DNA of 64,000 bases from Halorientalis persicus. GTDB lineage: Archaea > Halobacteriota > Halobacteria > Halobacteriales > Haloarculaceae. A program made the translations under genes and the position numbers. Under the pieces are notes generated by a model. That model was not told the origin of the DNA and ran no database searches. It worked only from the letters and a program-made list of their open reading frames with translations. The DNA lies in NCBI RefSeq assembly GCF_900110215.1, contig NZ_FOCX01000014.1, positions 1 through 64,000 on the forward strand, written 5' to 3'. Below, in pieces: positions 24,174-32,734 of this stretch. Each line of letters begins with the position of its first letter. Within the stretch, counting starts at the first letter, position 1.

Positions 24174-24871
24174 TCAGATTAGCTGATTCCATGCGAAGGC
24201 GAACGATTGGAGCCAGTTGTCAGCTGTGTCTCGCTGGGCGTTGCTGAAACAGTTTGAGAACGAAGAGGTACGGCGTTTTACCTCACGAAAGACACGTTCG
24301 ACACTGTTCCGATTTCCGTGGCGTTTGTATCTGAAATCGAGGCCGTGTCGCTGGCAAGCGTCTTTCAGTGGTGCTGCACCATCGACGAGAAACACGGCGT
24401 TCACGAGAACGAAGTTCTCGTGCAGCCCATCAGAACGCTTTGCGTTCTGAGGACGTCGTCCACGTCGTGTTTCTCGCGGAGTTCAGCGAAGAACGCGTGA
24501 GCGAGAGCGTTCGTTCTCACGGGCTCAAGCTTTGTATGGAGTAATTCGTTCGTGTCGGGATCGACCGCAGCGTACAGCCAGTATTGCTCGTCGTTGAGTC
24601 GGATCACGGTCTCGTCAACCGCAACGTGATCCGGACTGCATCCAGTTTCGGGCTGTAGATCTGCCTTGTGAACCCAATTATGCACGGTGGATCGCGCTCG
24701 CTCGACACCGAATATATCAAGAACCGAAACGGTATTCGAAAGCGAGAGTCCGGCGAGATGCAACTGAATACCGAGCTTCATCAGCAGTCGCGGTGTCGCT
24801 TCTCGTTCAACAAACTCTAAGTCGATCTGGTCGGTACTCCCGCCGAGGCGTGTGTTTTCGGGCATGGACAC
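24174..24871 (-). pseudogene. IS6-family DDE transposase, interrupted
   Basis: The first frame (24871-24401) has the N-terminal HTH region and the first catalytic Asp in SPDHVAVDETVIRL. The second (ending 24174) has the second Asp in VFLVDGA and the Glu in SVERVFREVKRRT. The frames are separated by a 56-nt insert (24401-24456) made of two palindromes; removing it restores REKHDVDD-AVFLVDGA. DDE residues and ends are intact, so the insert is the only evident lesion. Confidence 0.85.
24402..24450. repeat. twin-hairpin mini-insert C (in IS6 transposase)
   Basis: CACGAGAAC-GAA-GTTCTCGTG (24402-24422) and TCAGAACGC-TTT-GCGTTCTGA (24430-24450) have 9-bp perfect arms, 3-nt centres and a 7-nt spacer. 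They lie within a 56-nt segment flanked by a CGT repeat that splits the transposase frame. The layout matches the two inserts in tnpB. Confidence 0.85.
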
Positions 24872-25421: not shown

Positions 25422-25988
25422 ATGCCCCAGCCTTGGGACGAATTTCGCGACGACATCGCATCCGCTGATGCAGAGCGCGTCAACCCCGTCGTCGAAGAGG
25501 TCGGCGCGTGGGACATCGACGAGCGCGTTCGATCGTTCGAGGACTGCTTCGACGGTCTGACGACGCTGTACGGGGCGAGCGACGACGGCTACGTGCGACA
25601 GTCCTGTGTCCGCGTCACGGACGAACTCGCCCCCGGACTCGCGGCCGCGGTCAACCTGCAAGACGAGCAGGCATCGAGTCCGGACCGGGAGACCGTCGTC
25701 GACCAGACGGATGCGCTGTGTGGGTTCTTCCTCGAAGCGATGACCGACGAAGACGGCCGTGTCCGACAGTCAGCCAAGCAGGGACTGCAAGACGTCTTCC
25801 GGACCTACGACACGCTGGAGGAGCGCGACACGATCGAAGCGGTTCGGGCAGAGCTAGACGAGATGGCCTCGCGCTACGACGGCAAACGAGGGGAGCACCT
25901 CGAAGAAGCCAAGCGGACCGCAAACGCCAGCCTCGACTCGCCCCTCACGCAGATGGTTCAGGATGTCGCGGCGCGACTCGACGAGTAA
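25422..25988 (+). CDS. HEAT-repeat-like helical protein
   Basis: ATG 25422 gives a 188-residue acidic protein. Paired helices recur with the pattern 'DDGYVRQSCVRVTDELAPGL' and 'DEDGRVRQSAKQGLQDVF', characteristic of HEAT/ARM-type units; such folds serve as protein or nucleic-acid scaffolds. Longer in-frame starts (25242 or earlier) exist, but the added sequence is basic and compositionally different. It is the first gene of GC-rich type, 110 nt upstream of the structured element and the RNA-ligase operon, on the same strand, so a link to RNA repair is possible but not shown. Confidence 0.65.
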   Translation: MPQPWDEFRDDIASADAERVNPVVEEVGAWDIDERVRSFEDCFDGLTTLYGASDDGYVRQSCVRVTDELAPGLAAAVNLQDEQASSPDRETVVDQTDALCGFFLEAMTDEDGRVRQSAKQGLQDVFRTYDTLEERDTIEAVRAELDEMASRYDGKRGEHLEEAKRTANASLDSPLTQMVQDVAARLDE

Positions 25989-26098
25989 AACGCCATCGTC
26001 ACGGGATGGCCCTTTTGTGATCCGGGACCACACCGACAGAAAGTACTTACCACCGTGACAGAAACCGGGGAGTATGTCTCGGCCGCTGGTCGGACACC

Positions 26099-26169
26099 CA
26101 CGCGTCCGGTGAGCGGTTCGCGCGACCGCCTCCCCAGGCCGTAGCGGGCTGCGTCCCCGGACGCGTGGA
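26099..26169 (+). ncRNA. strongly paired RNA element before the RNA-ligase operon
   Basis: CCACGCGTCCGG (26099-26110) pairs perfectly with CCGGACGCGTGG (26158-26169), a 12-bp GC-rich stem. Inside is a hairpin GCGGT/ACCGC (26114-26118/26126-26130) and a weaker second arm around 26139-26150, giving a possible three-way junction. It ends 5 nt before the ATG at 26175. It could be a 5' leader structure, a small RNA or, less likely, an upstream terminator. Transcription is not shown. Confidence 0.55.
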
Positions 26170-26174
26170 TCACT

Positions 26175-26414
26175 ATGAACGAGGAAGATCGCCTTCGACG
26201 GGAGCTTCGCGCAGCGCGCGAGGAACTGGTCCGCAAACAGTCCCAGGGTCCCGCCGATCCGGACGCCTCCGAGAGTCAGCTGCCGCTGATGCCCGACCGG
26301 GACGAGCAGTTCCTCCGGCTGGCGTTGATGTCCGTCGAGGAACTCGAAACGCACGTCGAGCGACTTGAACGAGACCTCGAAGACCTGCGAGACGGTTTCG
26401 ACCACCCGGAGTAA
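26175..26414 (+). CDS. small coiled-coil protein in RNA-ligase operon
   Basis: A 79-residue charged protein with an N-terminal helix (EEDRLRRELRAAREELVRKQ) and a C-terminal heptad-like helix (EELETHVERLERDLEDLRD) separated by a Pro/Asp-rich hinge. It probably dimerises through a coiled coil. The stop is 1 nt before the ATG of the first RNA ligase, which indicates one transcript and coupled translation, so it may be a small subunit or adaptor of the ligases. No family was recognised. Confidence 0.65.
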   Translation: MNEEDRLRRELRAAREELVRKQSQGPADPDASESQLPLMPDRDEQFLRLALMSVEELETHVERLERDLEDLRDGFDHPE

Positions 26415-26415
26415 C

Positions 26416-27282
26416 ATGAAACAGTTCCCGTCGATTCCACGAGCCGCGAACGCGCCGGACGGCCTCTTCGACAGCGGCCACCTCTGGCTGCTCGAAAAAG
26501 TCGACGGGGCGAATTTCCGGTTCCAGCTCCGCCAGTCCGGTCAGTTGCGGTTCGGCGATCGGAGTCGTATCTACGAGACGGCGGACGCCGTTCCCGACCC
26601 GTACCAGCACGCCGTCCGGCACGTCCGGGCGGAACTGGACCGACACGCGCTCCGGGAGGCAGTCGAGGACGTCGAAACTGTCGTGTTCTTCGGCGAAGCG
26701 ATGCACCAGCACGCGATCGACTACGACTGGGAGCGGACGCCGTCCGTTCTCGGGTTCGACGTCTGGTCGGCGACCGAGGAGGGGTTTCTCCCACCGGACA
26801 CCGTCGAGCAGATCTTCGAGCGGCTGGGCCTCCAGCCGGTGAACGCCGTCGAGCGCGAACGCAACGCGCGGGATTTCCACCCCGAATCGTACACTATCCC
26901 GCAATCGGCGTGGTACGACGGGCCGGCCGAAGGCGTCGTCGTCCGGAACAAGCAGGGCCAGCGCGCGAAGCTCCTGCACCCGAACTTCCGGGAGGTCGAC
27001 GACACGGTCCCCGTCGACGGGTCGGCGTCGGAACTGGCCGAGCGATACGCGACCAGACGACGGGTCGAGAAGCTCGCGACCAAGTTCGAGGACAGCGAGC
27101 AGACAGTGACGTTTCAGACACTCTACGAGCAGGTCCTCGAAGACATTGTTCGGGAAGAGCACAAACAGCTCTACCACGGCGAGCAGTCGGTCGATATGAG
27201 CGAGTTCCGATCCGAGGTGGCCGCGCGGACGCGAGCGTTCCTCGACGAGTTCGAGCGCGATCAGGGAGGCACCGACGCATGA
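26416..27282 (+). CDS. RNA ligase (Rnl-type nucleotidyltransferase) 1
   Basis: A 288-residue ATP-dependent RNA ligase. Motif I is LLEKVDGANFRF with the adenylated Lys at about 28; motif III is VVFFGEAM (about 94-101); motif IV is AEGVVVRN (about 172); motif V is RAKLLHPNF (about 184). The remaining C-terminus is helical. The motif set fits the Rnl2/Rnl-like branch that seals nicked or broken RNA. It overlaps the next, second ligase gene by 4 nt (ATGA), and an upstream small coiled-coil gene is 1 nt away. Confidence 0.88.
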   Translation: MKQFPSIPRAANAPDGLFDSGHLWLLEKVDGANFRFQLRQSGQLRFGDRSRIYETADAVPDPYQHAVRHVRAELDRHALREAVEDVETVVFFGEAMHQHAIDYDWERTPSVLGFDVWSATEEGFLPPDTVEQIFERLGLQPVNAVERERNARDFHPESYTIPQSAWYDGPAEGVVVRNKQGQRAKLLHPNFREVDDTVPVDGSASELAERYATRRRVEKLATKFEDSEQTVTFQTLYEQVLEDIVREEHKQLYHGEQSVDMSEFRSEVAARTRAFLDEFERDQGGTDA

Positions 27283-28354
27283 AGGTATATCCGAAGATTC
27301 CGCGCTACGATCACCCGGTCGTCCCAGCGAATTTCTTCGACCAGCAGGATCTGACGCTACTGGAGAAGTTCGACGGGAGTTCGTTCCGGTTCACGCTATA
27401 CGACGACCGCTACGCGGCCCAGTATCCGGATCCAGTCGTCAAGGCTGCCGACGGTGACGGAAGTCTCGTGTTTGGAACGCGCAAAACGATCCGGGGGAGC
27501 CACCGGGATTCGCTCGACGATATCGACGGCGGATTGCACCGGGCCGTCCGCTGTCTCCGGGAGGGAATCGACACCGCAGCACTCCAGGAGCTCCACACGG
27601 AATACGACGAGCCAGTGATCGTCTACGCTGAGAACTTCGTTTACTCGACGCTCGACTACGGATACACGGACCGGTCCCTCCCCGCCCTAGTCGGGTTCGA
27701 CGTCCTGCCGTACTCGGCCATCGAGACCATGACGGCCCCGGGCAATCCCTACGAGGAGACGTTCGATGGATTTCTCGATCTGGTGACAGCCCGGGCTGTA
27801 TTCGATCGGATTCGCGTCCCTGACGTACCAACGAACCGATCATTCACTCCGGCGACGGTTCTGGGCAGTCCCGATGAAGGATTCGATCTCGAGTCGCACA
27901 CCTTCCCACAGTCGTCGCTGGCTGACGATGTTCGCGTCGAGGGTGTCGTGGTGCGGAGTGACGAGTCCGGTCGACGGGTGAAACTCGTCCGGGACGAGTT
28001 CGAGGAACTGAACCGGAACAGTTCGGGCGACAACCGGACGAGGCCGAATCCGGCGCGGAATATGTCGTCGCGACGTACTGTACTCCCGCCCGCATCCGGA
28101 AACAGGTGCGAAAGATGGTCGTCGAAGAGGGCCGGGAGTTCGGTCCCCACCTGAACGACGACCTCTACCCGCGCGTCGTCGAGGACATCTGGGCTGAACA
28201 CTGGCACGATCTGATGGATATGGACGTGGCGTTCACGCCGGTCGACGTCTATCCGCTGGTCGCTAAGCGCTGCATCACCGAACTCCGGAAGATGGAGACC
28301 AACGCCGAACTGAACGATGCCGACCCGACGGAGATCTGGAAACACCTCTCCTGA
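27279..28354 (+). pseudogene. RNA ligase 2, with a frameshift near its end
   Basis: From ATG 27279 the protein shows motif I LLEKFDGSSFRF (Lys about 30), motif III VIVYAENFV, motif IV VEGVVVRS and motif V RRVKLVRDEF, so all nucleotidyl-transfer motifs are before the break. At about 28,013-28,016 the frame shifts. One added base restores EQFGRQPDEAESGAEYVVAT and the helical C-terminus through 28354 (DPTEIWKHLS). The other frame runs on to 28154. The downstream part is well preserved, so the shift is recent or a sequencing error. The 3-to-4 kb region thus encodes two divergent ligases in tandem. Confidence 0.82.
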
Positions 28355-28501: not shown

Positions 28502-29893
28502 ATGGTCGAGTTCGTGAACCGGACGGCGGAACTCGAACGACTCCGTTCGCTCTACGAGTCGGACGACGCCGAACTCGCAGTGGTATTCGGGCGGCGGCGA
28601 CTCGGCAAGACGGAACTCCTGAAACAGTCGCTCGACGGGTACGACGATGCCGTGATATACCAGGCGAGACAGAAAACGAGTACGTTACAGCTGCAACAGT
28701 TCGTCGAGACTGCAGCGGAATCCTACCCGGATCTCGAACGGATCCGGGAGGAGTGGGAGGAGGTACTTCGATATCTCGCCGAGCGGGACGCGATCGTCGT
28801 CCTCGACGAGTTCCCGTATCTCGTCGAACAGGATGACAGCCTGCCGTCCGTACTACAGGCGCTGTTCGACCACGAACTCGACGATTCGGCTGCGACGATC
28901 GTGCTGGTCGGATCGTCGATCAGCATGATGGAGGAGGCGGCGCTACTGGGTAACAGCCCGCTGTACGGCCGGTCGTCGCTGAAGCTCGATATCAGACAGC
29001 TCCCCTTCGACGCCGCGATGGCGTTTTTCGACGAGTCGTATACCGCCGCCGAGCAGGTGAGTACGTGGGGAGTGTTCGGTGGCGTCCCGTACTATCTCGA
29101 GGAGGTGTCGCCGGACGCGACGCTCGCCGAGAACGTGCAGCGAACGATCCTCTCGCGACACGGGACGCTCCACGACGAACCGGACTACGTCCTCCGGATG
29201 GAACTCACGGAACCGACACGGTACTTCTCGATTCTCGAAGCGATCGCGGGTGGCAGTACGAGCCGAAACGAAATCGCGGGGACGACGGGGATCGACTACA
29301 ACCAGCTCTCGAAGTATCTCGATCGACTGTCCCGGTTACGGCTCGTCGATCGACACGTTCCGATCACCGAGCAGAAAGAGCGGAGCAAACGAAGCCACTA
29401 CCGGATCCGTGATCCCTTCTTTCGCTTCTGGTTTCGCTTCGTCTACGGATCGAGCGACCGGTACGACGAACTCGGGACCGACGCCTACGAGATCCTCGTC
29501 GAACCCGAACTGGCGGATTTCGTGAGCCACTCGTTCGAGGCGTTGTGTTGTTCGGCACTCCGGACGCTCTACCCCGAACACACGATCACGGAGACCGGCC
29601 AGTGGTGGTACGAGGACCACGAGGTGGACGCCGTCGGACTGACTCAGGGTGAAACACTGATCGCCGGCGAGTGTAAATTCCAGCAGTCGCCACTCGGCTA
29701 CGACGCGTTCTCGAAACTACAGACACACGTCGACGAACTCAGGTGGACGCCCGAGACGGGTAGCGAACGACGAGAAGAGTACGCGCTCTTCTCACGCAGC
29801 GGATTCAAGCCCTCGGTCGAAGAAGCCGCGACCGAACGGGACGACCTGCGACTGTTCACGGTCGAAGATGTCGTCGAAGCGCTGAAGAGTTAG
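28502..29893 (+). CDS. archaeal ATPase with DUF234 nuclease-like domain
   Basis: A 463-residue member of the archaeal AAA/STAND-like ATPases. Walker A is GRRRLGKTEL (about 32-41) and Walker B is IVVLDEFPYL (about 98-107). A winged-helix region follows (about 250-300; SRNEIAGTTGIDYNQLSKYLDRL). The C-terminal DUF234 domain has the endonuclease-like core EVDAVGL...IAGECKFQ (about 375-400), the E/D..E-x-K pattern of restriction-type nucleases. Family members are often mobile or stress-linked, but their role is unproven. The palindrome cluster upstream suggests tight control. Its stop overlaps the convergent epimerase by 4 nt. Confidence 0.85.
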   Translation: MVEFVNRTAELERLRSLYESDDAELAVVFGRRRLGKTELLKQSLDGYDDAVIYQARQKTSTLQLQQFVETAAESYPDLERIREEWEEVLRYLAERDAIVVLDEFPYLVEQDDSLPSVLQALFDHELDDSAATIVLVGSSISMMEEAALLGNSPLYGRSSLKLDIRQLPFDAAMAFFDESYTAAEQVSTWGVFGGVPYYLEEVSPDATLAENVQRTILSRHGTLHDEPDYVLRMELTEPTRYFSILEAIAGGSTSRNEIAGTTGIDYNQLSKYLDRLSRLRLVDRHVPITEQKERSKRSHYRIRDPFFRFWFRFVYGSSDRYDELGTDAYEILVEPELADFVSHSFEALCCSALRTLYPEHTITETGQWWYEDHEVDAVGLTQGETLIAGECKFQQSPLGYDAFSKLQTHVDELRWTPETGSERREEYALFSRSGFKPSVEEAATERDDLRLFTVEDVVEALKS

Positions 29894-32078: not shown

Positions 32079-32104
32079 TTTGCGTACAAACACCCATACG
32101 CAAA
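32079..32104. promoter_or_regulatory. inverted repeat before vapB (putative autoregulatory operator)
   Basis: TTTGCGTA (32079-32086) is exactly inverted as TACGCAAA (32097-32104), with an 18-nt half-site spacing, ending 2 nt before the antitoxin ATG. VapB proteins usually repress their own operon through such sites. Confidence 0.55.
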
Positions 32105-32106
32105 CC

Positions 32107-32334
32107 ATGAGCAAGAACATCTCCATCTCCGACGACGTGTACCGGAAACTGAAGCGGGAGAAAGGGGATCGGAGTTTCAGCGAGGTCATCGAAGATCGAC
32201 TCGAGGCCGGCGGAAAGCTCGCGGACGTGACTGGCCAGGGGATCTTCGAGGAAGGCACACACGAGGATGTCAAAGACGATATCGGTCGGCTGAGCGGAGG
32301 GACGCTGGAGCGCCTGGACGATGAAACTCGTTGA
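32107..32334 (+). CDS. vapB: VapB-type antitoxin (haloarchaeal DUF7557/CopG-like)
   Basis: A 75-residue protein with an N-terminal ISISDDVYRKLKREKGDRSFSE segment typical of the DUF217/VapB antitoxins of archaea: a short beta strand and helix for DNA binding, then an acidic tail that would wrap the toxin. It overlaps the PIN toxin gene by 14 nt, so the two are translationally coupled. I took the start at 32107 because an upstream TTG would place the operator palindrome inside the gene. Confidence 0.82.
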   Translation: MSKNISISDDVYRKLKREKGDRSFSEVIEDRLEAGGKLADVTGQGIFEEGTHEDVKDDIGRLSGGTLERLDDETR

Positions 32335-32734
32335 TACGTCCACAGTCGTCGACATCGACCGCGGGAGCGTCGACCGGAAGGTCGAGAAACTCGACGACGA
32401 AGGCCGTCACGCGATCAGCGCTGTCACACTGACCGAACTCCGGTTGGGCGTGAACAAGCAGTACGAAACGGGCACAGAGACACACCGAGAGGCCATCGAG
32501 GACCTCGAGCGACTGTGTTCCCGGTTCGAGGTACTCCCGGCGAACAGACCCGTAGCTGTCGCGGCGGCCGACATAATCGCGGACCTGCAAACGCGTGGTG
32601 AGCCGTTAAACGACCTCCACGACGTCTACATCGCCGCGACTGGACGGACGGAACAACTCCCGGTTTTGACTGCGAACGTCGATCACTTCGAGCGCATCGA
32701 CGACGTGCAGGTCGTCGACTGGACGGAATACTGA
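32321..32734 (+). CDS. vapC: VapC toxin (PIN-domain ribonuclease)
   Basis: A 137-residue PIN domain with all acidic positions: LVDTSTVVD (Asp about 4), LTELRLG (Glu about 39), NDLHDVYIAA (Asp about 100) and TANVDHF (Asp about 118). PIN toxins cut tRNA or rRNA with Mg2+. It is the partner of the VapB gene it overlaps. The next gene is convergent and 18 nt away, so this is a compact two-gene unit inserted among sugar-metabolism genes. Confidence 0.9.
   Translation: MKLVDTSTVVDIDRGSVDRKVEKLDDEGRHAISAVTLTELRLGVNKQYETGTETHREAIEDLERLCSRFEVLPANRPVAVAAADIIADLQTRGEPLNDLHDVYIAATGRTEQLPVLTANVDHFERIDDVQVVDWTEY

Follow-up and report, generated by a model that had tools for sequence, protein, structure and literature searches.

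A predicted hairpin RNA conserved upstream of a small-protein gene, often ahead of RNA ligase genes, in haloarchaea

The hairpin directly before the gene at 26175 of the window (the whole stretch of Halorientalis persicus DNA analyzed, 64,000 nucleotides) is, on comparative sequence evidence, a conserved structured RNA and not a chance palindrome. Strong copies were found at 32 loci in 30 haloarchaeal genomes, all of them directly upstream of the gene for a small protein, P0001, on the same strand and with 4-10 nt between the 3' arm and the P0001 start. The hairpin is overlapped by a tiny upstream open reading frame (uORF), an arrangement that suggests translational control. We hold it about an even chance that the element is a cis-acting mRNA leader in which translation of the uORF, together with a probable bound protein, gates P0001 and the RNA ligases encoded behind it; the transcription start, the translation of the uORF, the direction of control and the bound factor are what we infer as parts of this reading.

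Fold, conservation and covariation of the hairpin

A sequence-only reading of the window had described a 12-bp perfect stem spanning 26099-26169 and ending 5 nt before a start codon. The perfect 12-bp outer stem is present on the + strand, one base further left, with its 5' arm at 26098-26109 (CCACGCGTCCGG) and its 3' arm at 26157-26168 (CCGGACGCGTGG); the gap between the 3' arm and the ATG at 26175 is 6 nt (26169-26174) and not 5. Within it lies a long inner helix, the 5' strand of which occupies 26113-26124 (GCGGTTCGC-GCG; 99.7% of cells paired) and the 3' strand 26140-26152 (CGT-A-GCGGGCTGC, with one bulged A). The apical part (26125-26139, + strand) consists of an ACC bulge and a variable small hairpin and was left unpaired in the two covariance models, R1 and R2. 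The inner 5-bp hairpin proposed earlier (GCGGT/ACCGC) can form, but the long inner helix is favored by both the minimum-energy and the consensus folds. The + strand fold was calculated at -50.8 kcal/mol (z -3.8), and none of 200 shuffled sequences was equally stable. Perfect inverted repeats of at least 12 bp with a loop of 3-80 nt numbered two in the window against a mean of 0.5 (maximum 3) in 40 order-1 Markov control sequences. Judged by length alone the 12-bp stem is only mildly unusual; it is significant because of its 32 copies in 30 genomes with covarying helices.

Several other identities for the hairpin were considered. As to a terminator, the window shows no run of T residues behind the 3' arm. 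A bulge-helix-bulge splicing motif was rejected on the predicted fold, whose bulges fall on the wrong sides of the 3-bp helix, one of them being a single base. A pseudoknot between an upstream GGUC and GACC of the core was checked by eye and is not supported by loci L049 and L053. Mimicry of another genomic site was likewise set aside: an exact match to the core 14-mer occurs once in the genome, and with up to two mismatches allowed the pattern itself gave 43 and 36 matches, fewer than the 111 and 105 of the backwards control. When the whole window was searched with Rfam 15, nothing scored above the gathering threshold of any family; with E values up to 10 the best match was mir-3017, on the other strand (20.3 bits against a gathering threshold of 51). 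A tRNA search of the window found none.

P0001 was located by protein similarity at 24 places (E < 1e-23) in 22 of the 392 genomes of the order that were searched. Model R1, built from the aligned upstream DNA of nine P0001 loci, gave 22 strong matches (E <= 2.5e-6) in the same 392 genomes, and the positive genomes were exactly the 22 with a strong P0001, nine of them matching by construction. The next match (G034, E 0.0098) was in a genome without a P0001 match. Model R2 was built from the 22 R1 loci and applied to four families of the order (146, 170, 125 and 26 genomes), with a gain of 10 strong loci, all with E <= 9e-11, from 8 genomes not among the first 22; P0001 stood behind every one. 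A profile search with 29 P0001 proteins in 384 genomes found no strong copy beyond the 24 places of the similarity search. The covariance model of homologous leaders that the sequence-only reading had called for could thus be built, and it finds 32 loci with covarying helices. The structured RNA which that reading had placed before the 26175 gene, and which it took to be refutable by a lack of conservation, is conserved.

Every strong P0001 copy found with a normal start carries the hairpin RNA. The two strong copies without it, G257 copy 2 and G175:C73, both lack the usual ATG and look decayed. On inspection of the DNA of the latter (L113) by eye, the hairpin is gone and the uORF start enters the P0001 copy out of frame; L113 is, to judge by its DNA, a natural loss of the hairpin. 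Among weaker model matches (E 2.6e-5 to 1), 13 were viewed by eye, including L127, L128 and L086, and were put down to chance; L146 and L147 proved to be one perfect palindrome matched on both strands. No P0001 was found by tblastn within 6 kb of the weak matches in G034 and G220.

Ten genomes with distant relatives of P0001 were also searched with R2. The RNA was absent by this search in eight and matched in G056 and G368 only. Two divergent copies scored weakly in a search of 71 kb, L055 with 24 bits (E 0.0008) and L059 with 20 bits (E 0.009). They stand close ahead of distant P0001 relatives, at 9 and 5 nt respectively, and both preserve the uORF layout, with a start, 11-13 codons and then a stop that falls on the inner end of the 5' arm or slightly beyond it.

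Among 30 distinct rows, in an alignment fitted to the model, which favors pairing, the paired share of the 701 cells was 95.7%, compared with 87.5% in shuffled controls. Half of the 24 pairs (12) had changed on both sides, in 69 cells, and none of 500 shuffles reached as high a value; when the partner strand was slid by 1-3 columns, pairing fell to 25-46%. For the 10 loci outside R2 (9 distinct rows) the corresponding figures were 94.3% paired and 86.5% shuffled, with both-side changes in 7 pairs (19 cells), values matched by 13 and 0 of 500 shuffles; further pair types were not above shuffles (223/500). RNAalifold on alignment A4, likewise fitted to R1, returned the same two helices. Both helices covary. 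In the outer stem, both-side changes were seen at 9 of the 12 pairs of the 30-row alignment, and its sequence varies freely. The inner helix is nearly invariant in sequence, with CGTAGCG of its 3' strand unchanged in 20 rows; one of its pairs is C-G, U-G or U-A and another is G-U or U-G. These wobble pairs of the + strand are mismatches if read on the other strand, and model scores for the reverse strand are far lower (in L033, for example, 29.6 bits against 102.1 forward). These features point to an RNA of the + strand.

Promoter element and upstream ORF

A BRE/TATA-like element with a consensus of about CACAGAAAGYAYTTAT lies at 26037-26051 (+ strand), its center 26.5 nt before the ATG of the uORF. 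The TATA-like box could be placed at all 32 loci using a pattern written by eye, with several alternatives for single loci (L037, L053, L124 and L148). The distance from its center to the uORF ATG was 25.5-27.5 nt in 28 of the 30 loci with a script-assigned ATG. The outliers were L148 (34.5 nt) and L053 (15.5 nt), the latter because the script picked a different upstream ATG. From the position of the box, transcription therefore probably starts on the uORF ATG. The expected site of a TATA box for the P0001 start (-34 to -21) is occupied by the GC-rich core, with a mean AT content of 0.30 over the 32 loci. With GC-rich core there and a TATA-like box before the upstream ATG, a start inside or after the stem, which would leave no leader and which the sequence-only reading had named as its own refutation, appears unlikely. 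Taken as a whole, that first reading is partly supported.

In Haloferax volcanii, 72% of messages are leaderless and structured leaders are judged untypical, and uORFs are listed in long 5'-UTRs (PMC4983044). Since most messages of that species are leaderless, a leaderless start of the uORF is plausible; from its sequence context, the uORF is probably leaderless, with transcription starting at or next to its ATG.

In the window the uORF occupies 26074-26112 (+ strand; 12 codons and TGA; MSRPLVGHPRVR), begins at the predicted transcription start and has its stop codon at the inner edge of the 5' arm. An ORF of 12-13 codons that stops at this point, with TGA, TAA or TAG, was found at 26 of the 32 loci. 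The remaining loci are broken at the start (L048, with ACG for ATG, and L124, with no ATG), stop after two codons (L052), or pass the usual stop and end at a TAG in the core (L046, L125 and L126). The encoded peptides are of the x-LVGKP-x type in close relatives and unrelated in L049, L055 and L059. The position of the stop is kept while the peptides are unrelated, and we take the conserved feature to be the point at which translation would end, not the peptide. Neither a conserved stalling peptide nor regulated amino-acid codons were found in the uORFs of the loci compared, and amino-acid-specific attenuation was rejected, as the last codons and the peptides vary between loci. A synonymous-change test was run on the 26 distinct 15-mers from all 32 loci. 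For the five codons before the stem the synonymous share was 0.263 against 0.226 expected, and 4 of 300 shuffles were as high; in the other two frames 157 and 298 of 300 were. The coding signal in these five codons is weak.

P0001, RNA ligases and neighboring genes

P0001 (26175-26414, + strand) is a small helical protein of 79 aa and the constant partner of the RNA. Members of the family are 76-83 aa long, and L126 has ATA where the start codon is expected. P0001 had no match at the cut-off in Pfam or NCBIfam. Its predicted structure consists of three helices (mean pLDDT 76), for which a Foldseek search returned no PDB match with E <= 0.001; no RNA-binding fold was recognized in the predicted model or by Foldseek. 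A scan of genome contigs matched P0001 in two Halorientalis species only, and a scan of viral contigs gave none. The PADLOC defence library gave no match for P0001, RNA ligases A and B or the second RtcB. On the Halocatena salina plasmid unnamed4 (L190), a protein of 1074 aa that matches nSTAND NTPase and TPR families is encoded close to the RNA and P0001, a setting that suggests a defence or mobile island.

Behind P0001 in the window are the genes for RNA ligase A (P0002, 288 aa; 26416-27282, + strand), which matches PF09414 (E 6e-19), and RNA ligase B (27279-28354, + strand), whose homologue in Halorientalis salina matches PF09414 just below the cut-off. The window ligase B matches that homologue partly in one reading frame and partly in another; a frameshift therefore interrupts the gene, whether in this genome or only in its assembly. 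Downstream of the RNA, a complete or incomplete RNA ligase gene was found at 20 of the 32 loci, either a PF09414 ligase of type A or B or a second RtcB; none was found in the downstream DNA examined at the other 12. Among the first 22 loci there is an RNA ligase at 15, namely ligase A and/or B at 14 and RtcB in G119; the seven without one are G278, G126, G284, G320, G180, G257 and G339. Ligase B was found at 5 of the further 10 loci, within the approximately 1.25 kb examined behind P0001, with a fragment in L134. Not all of the 14 are intact: there is a truncated ligase in G361, a 33-residue remnant in G021 and, in the window, the broken B beside an intact A. G119 has a better-scoring RtcB elsewhere in its genome, so the RtcB behind P0001 is a second, divergent copy. 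In G244 (L116), ligase B comes behind a P0001 fragment without recognizable RNA, and behind ligase B stands an RtcB that shares 81% identity with the G119 copy, which places two RNA-ligase families in one cluster.

A conserved 89-aa protein is encoded after P0001 at 12 of the 32 loci (7 of the first 22 and 5 of the further 10). Its gene precedes that of ligase B where ligase B is present, and in L097 (G178) it lies approximately 267-534 nt after the P0001 start. A 71-residue piece of this protein gave no Pfam or NCBIfam match.

Other features of the surroundings were recorded as well. A conserved protein of about 188 residues (25422-25988) is encoded just upstream of the promoter; H. salina and H. 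regularis each have a relative at this site, and a weak HEAT match fell below the cut-off. Upstream of the operon, 24401-24871 (- strand) holds a piece which we take to resemble an IS6-type transposase. An archaeal ATPase (28502-29893) matched the PADLOC candidate defence models PDC-S27 (E 9e-45), and its relatives were seen near P0001 or the ligases at several other loci. At 32080-32734 a small antitoxin-like ORF overlaps a PIN-like ORF, a pair that is VapBC-like by eye. Halogranum tailed virus 1 (KC292026.1) has an annotated RNA ligase at 105172-106095; aligned over 96% of the window ligase A, the two share 29% identity. Phage records with a weak relative numbered 184 in all.

Readings of the leader and related systems

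As a cis-acting leader, the element would work as follows. The mRNA would start at or next to the ATG of the 12-13-codon uORF, as judged from the TATA position. A ribosome would load leaderless at the uORF, traverse the 5' arm of the outer stem and halt at its inner end; since the uORF overlaps the 5' arm, a ribosome reading it would have to open the outer stem. The nearly invariant inner helix is a probable protein or ligand site, for which P0001 would be the first candidate. Occupancy of the uORF by ribosomes, together with the state of the core, bound or free, would leave the strong stem before the next ATG open or closed, and this state would set the translation of P0001 and of the RNA ligases behind it. 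With only 4-10 nt between it and the P0001 start, the closed stem would fall inside any ribosome footprint there. When a 28-nt footprint was masked at the approximate uORF stop, the mean accessibility of the P0001 ATG went from 0.36 to 0.44 over the 32 loci (up in 23, down in 6 and unchanged in 3); on such modeling a simple stem-opening mechanism appears poorly supported. The broken uORF at 6 of the 32 loci counts against the leader reading, as do the weak coding signal before the stem, the 12 loci at which no RNA ligase was found, the ATA start of L126, the eight genomes whose distant P0001 relatives had no matching RNA and the lack of a recognized RNA-binding fold in P0001. In its favor are the tie of the RNA to P0001, the covariation, the constant spacing of the TATA-like box, the fixed structural site of the uORF stop, also in L055 and L059, and the RNA ligases downstream.

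Four other explanations were weighed against it. P0001 might bind the invariant core and shut off or switch its own message, the uORF being a by-product of a start on ATG. We consider this unlikely, while recognizing that the RNA and P0001 are tied one to one among the strong matches, that the core is nearly invariant while the outer stem varies freely and that in G056 and G368 a divergent protein goes with a divergent RNA. It leaves unexplained the constant structural site of the uORF stop, kept with unrelated peptides; moreover, P0001 has no recognized RNA-binding fold, and the RNA went unmatched in 8 of 10 genomes with distant P0001 relatives. Rather more doubtful is an independent small RNA, processed from the leader and acting in trans with P0001 and the ligase in the manner of a Y RNA; the sequence-only reading, too, had raised an independent small RNA. 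The RNA is compact and self-contained, its neighbors are RNA ligases of two families (PF09414 types A and B and the second RtcB), and bacterial RNA-repair operons can encode Y RNAs (PMC7790460). Yet all 32 strong copies precede one and the same gene and share its strand, a conserved short ORF runs into the 5' arm, and no terminator-like T-run comes after the RNA in the window.

At the 32 loci a short ORF is followed by a strong stem and, 4-10 nt further on, by the P0001 start. This fixed order resembles that of viral shunt leaders (PMC5902531) and would fit a termination or hop device in which the ribosome ends the uORF, skips the hairpin and restarts at the P0001 ATG, stop and start being brought together by the hairpin. 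Such a device is very unlikely here, because the uORF ends after the 5' arm, so that the ribosome would have to open the outer stem in any case, and because the intact layout is missing at 6 of the 32 loci. That the stem is a DNA-level palindrome or a product of chance without RNA function would agree with the near-chance number of perfect 12-bp inverted repeats in 64 kb (two against 0.5 expected). The probability of this is close to nil: covariation over 30 distinct rows, wobble pairs that hold on one strand, the far lower reverse-strand model score and the one-to-one tie to a gene refute it as far as sequence can tell. A further, improbable idea is that of a self-sensing RNA-repair operon, in which the hairpin would mimic, or be, a target of the cleavage that the downstream ligases mend. 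If it were true, ribosomes stalled on the uORF or a cut apical loop would set the production of P0001 and the ligases.

Read as a cis-acting leader, the device is a leader with a uORF and hence of a known sort, in an unusual setting and with a new RNA core. It shares with attenuator and uORF leaders a short ORF at the 5' end of the leader that overlaps a hairpin before the regulated gene; this ORF, whose translation is predicted, is intact at 26 of 32 loci. Unlike the bacterial examples, the haloarchaeal leader is archaeal, is predicted to be leaderless and, in the window, lacks a T-run behind its 3' arm; its peptide varies in distant copies and shows no run of codons for a single amino acid, and its core is a nearly invariant structured RNA. 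In viral ribosome shunts the short ORF terminates ahead of the stem base, whereas the haloarchaeal uORF stops after the 5' arm, and the element does not have the shunt arrangement. In autoregulatory ribosomal-protein leaders the protein site is in the leader of the protein's own message; a possible site of this kind is predicted here too, but P0001 matches no ribosomal-protein family in Pfam or NCBIfam.

The bacterial rsr-yrlBA-rtcBA operon likewise has a structured RNA adjoining RNA ligase genes (PMC7790460). Of the haloarchaeal loci, G119 has a second RtcB and G244 has an RtcB behind its P0001 fragment and ligase B, while the ligases at the other loci are of the PF09414 kind. No Rsr (Ro60, TROVE), RtcA or RtcR was noticed among the predicted neighboring genes. 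The haloarchaeal RNA differs in sitting in an mRNA leader and in having a 79-aa helical protein as its constant partner. The HARP-Rnl3 pair of haloarchaea (PMC12153264) also combines an RNA ligase with an RNA-processing partner, but ligase A matches PF09414 and not PF18330, given there as the Rnl3 family. A search by titles and abstract openings, mostly outside the subscription literature, found no published description of the leader element.

Structured leaders are thought to be rare in haloarchaea. The leader described here retains its fold in four families of the order, often stands before one of three sorts of RNA ligase, and offers a testable exception in culturable species. It is an entry point to an uncharacterized archaeal RNA-repair gene cluster and to the small protein that constantly accompanies it.
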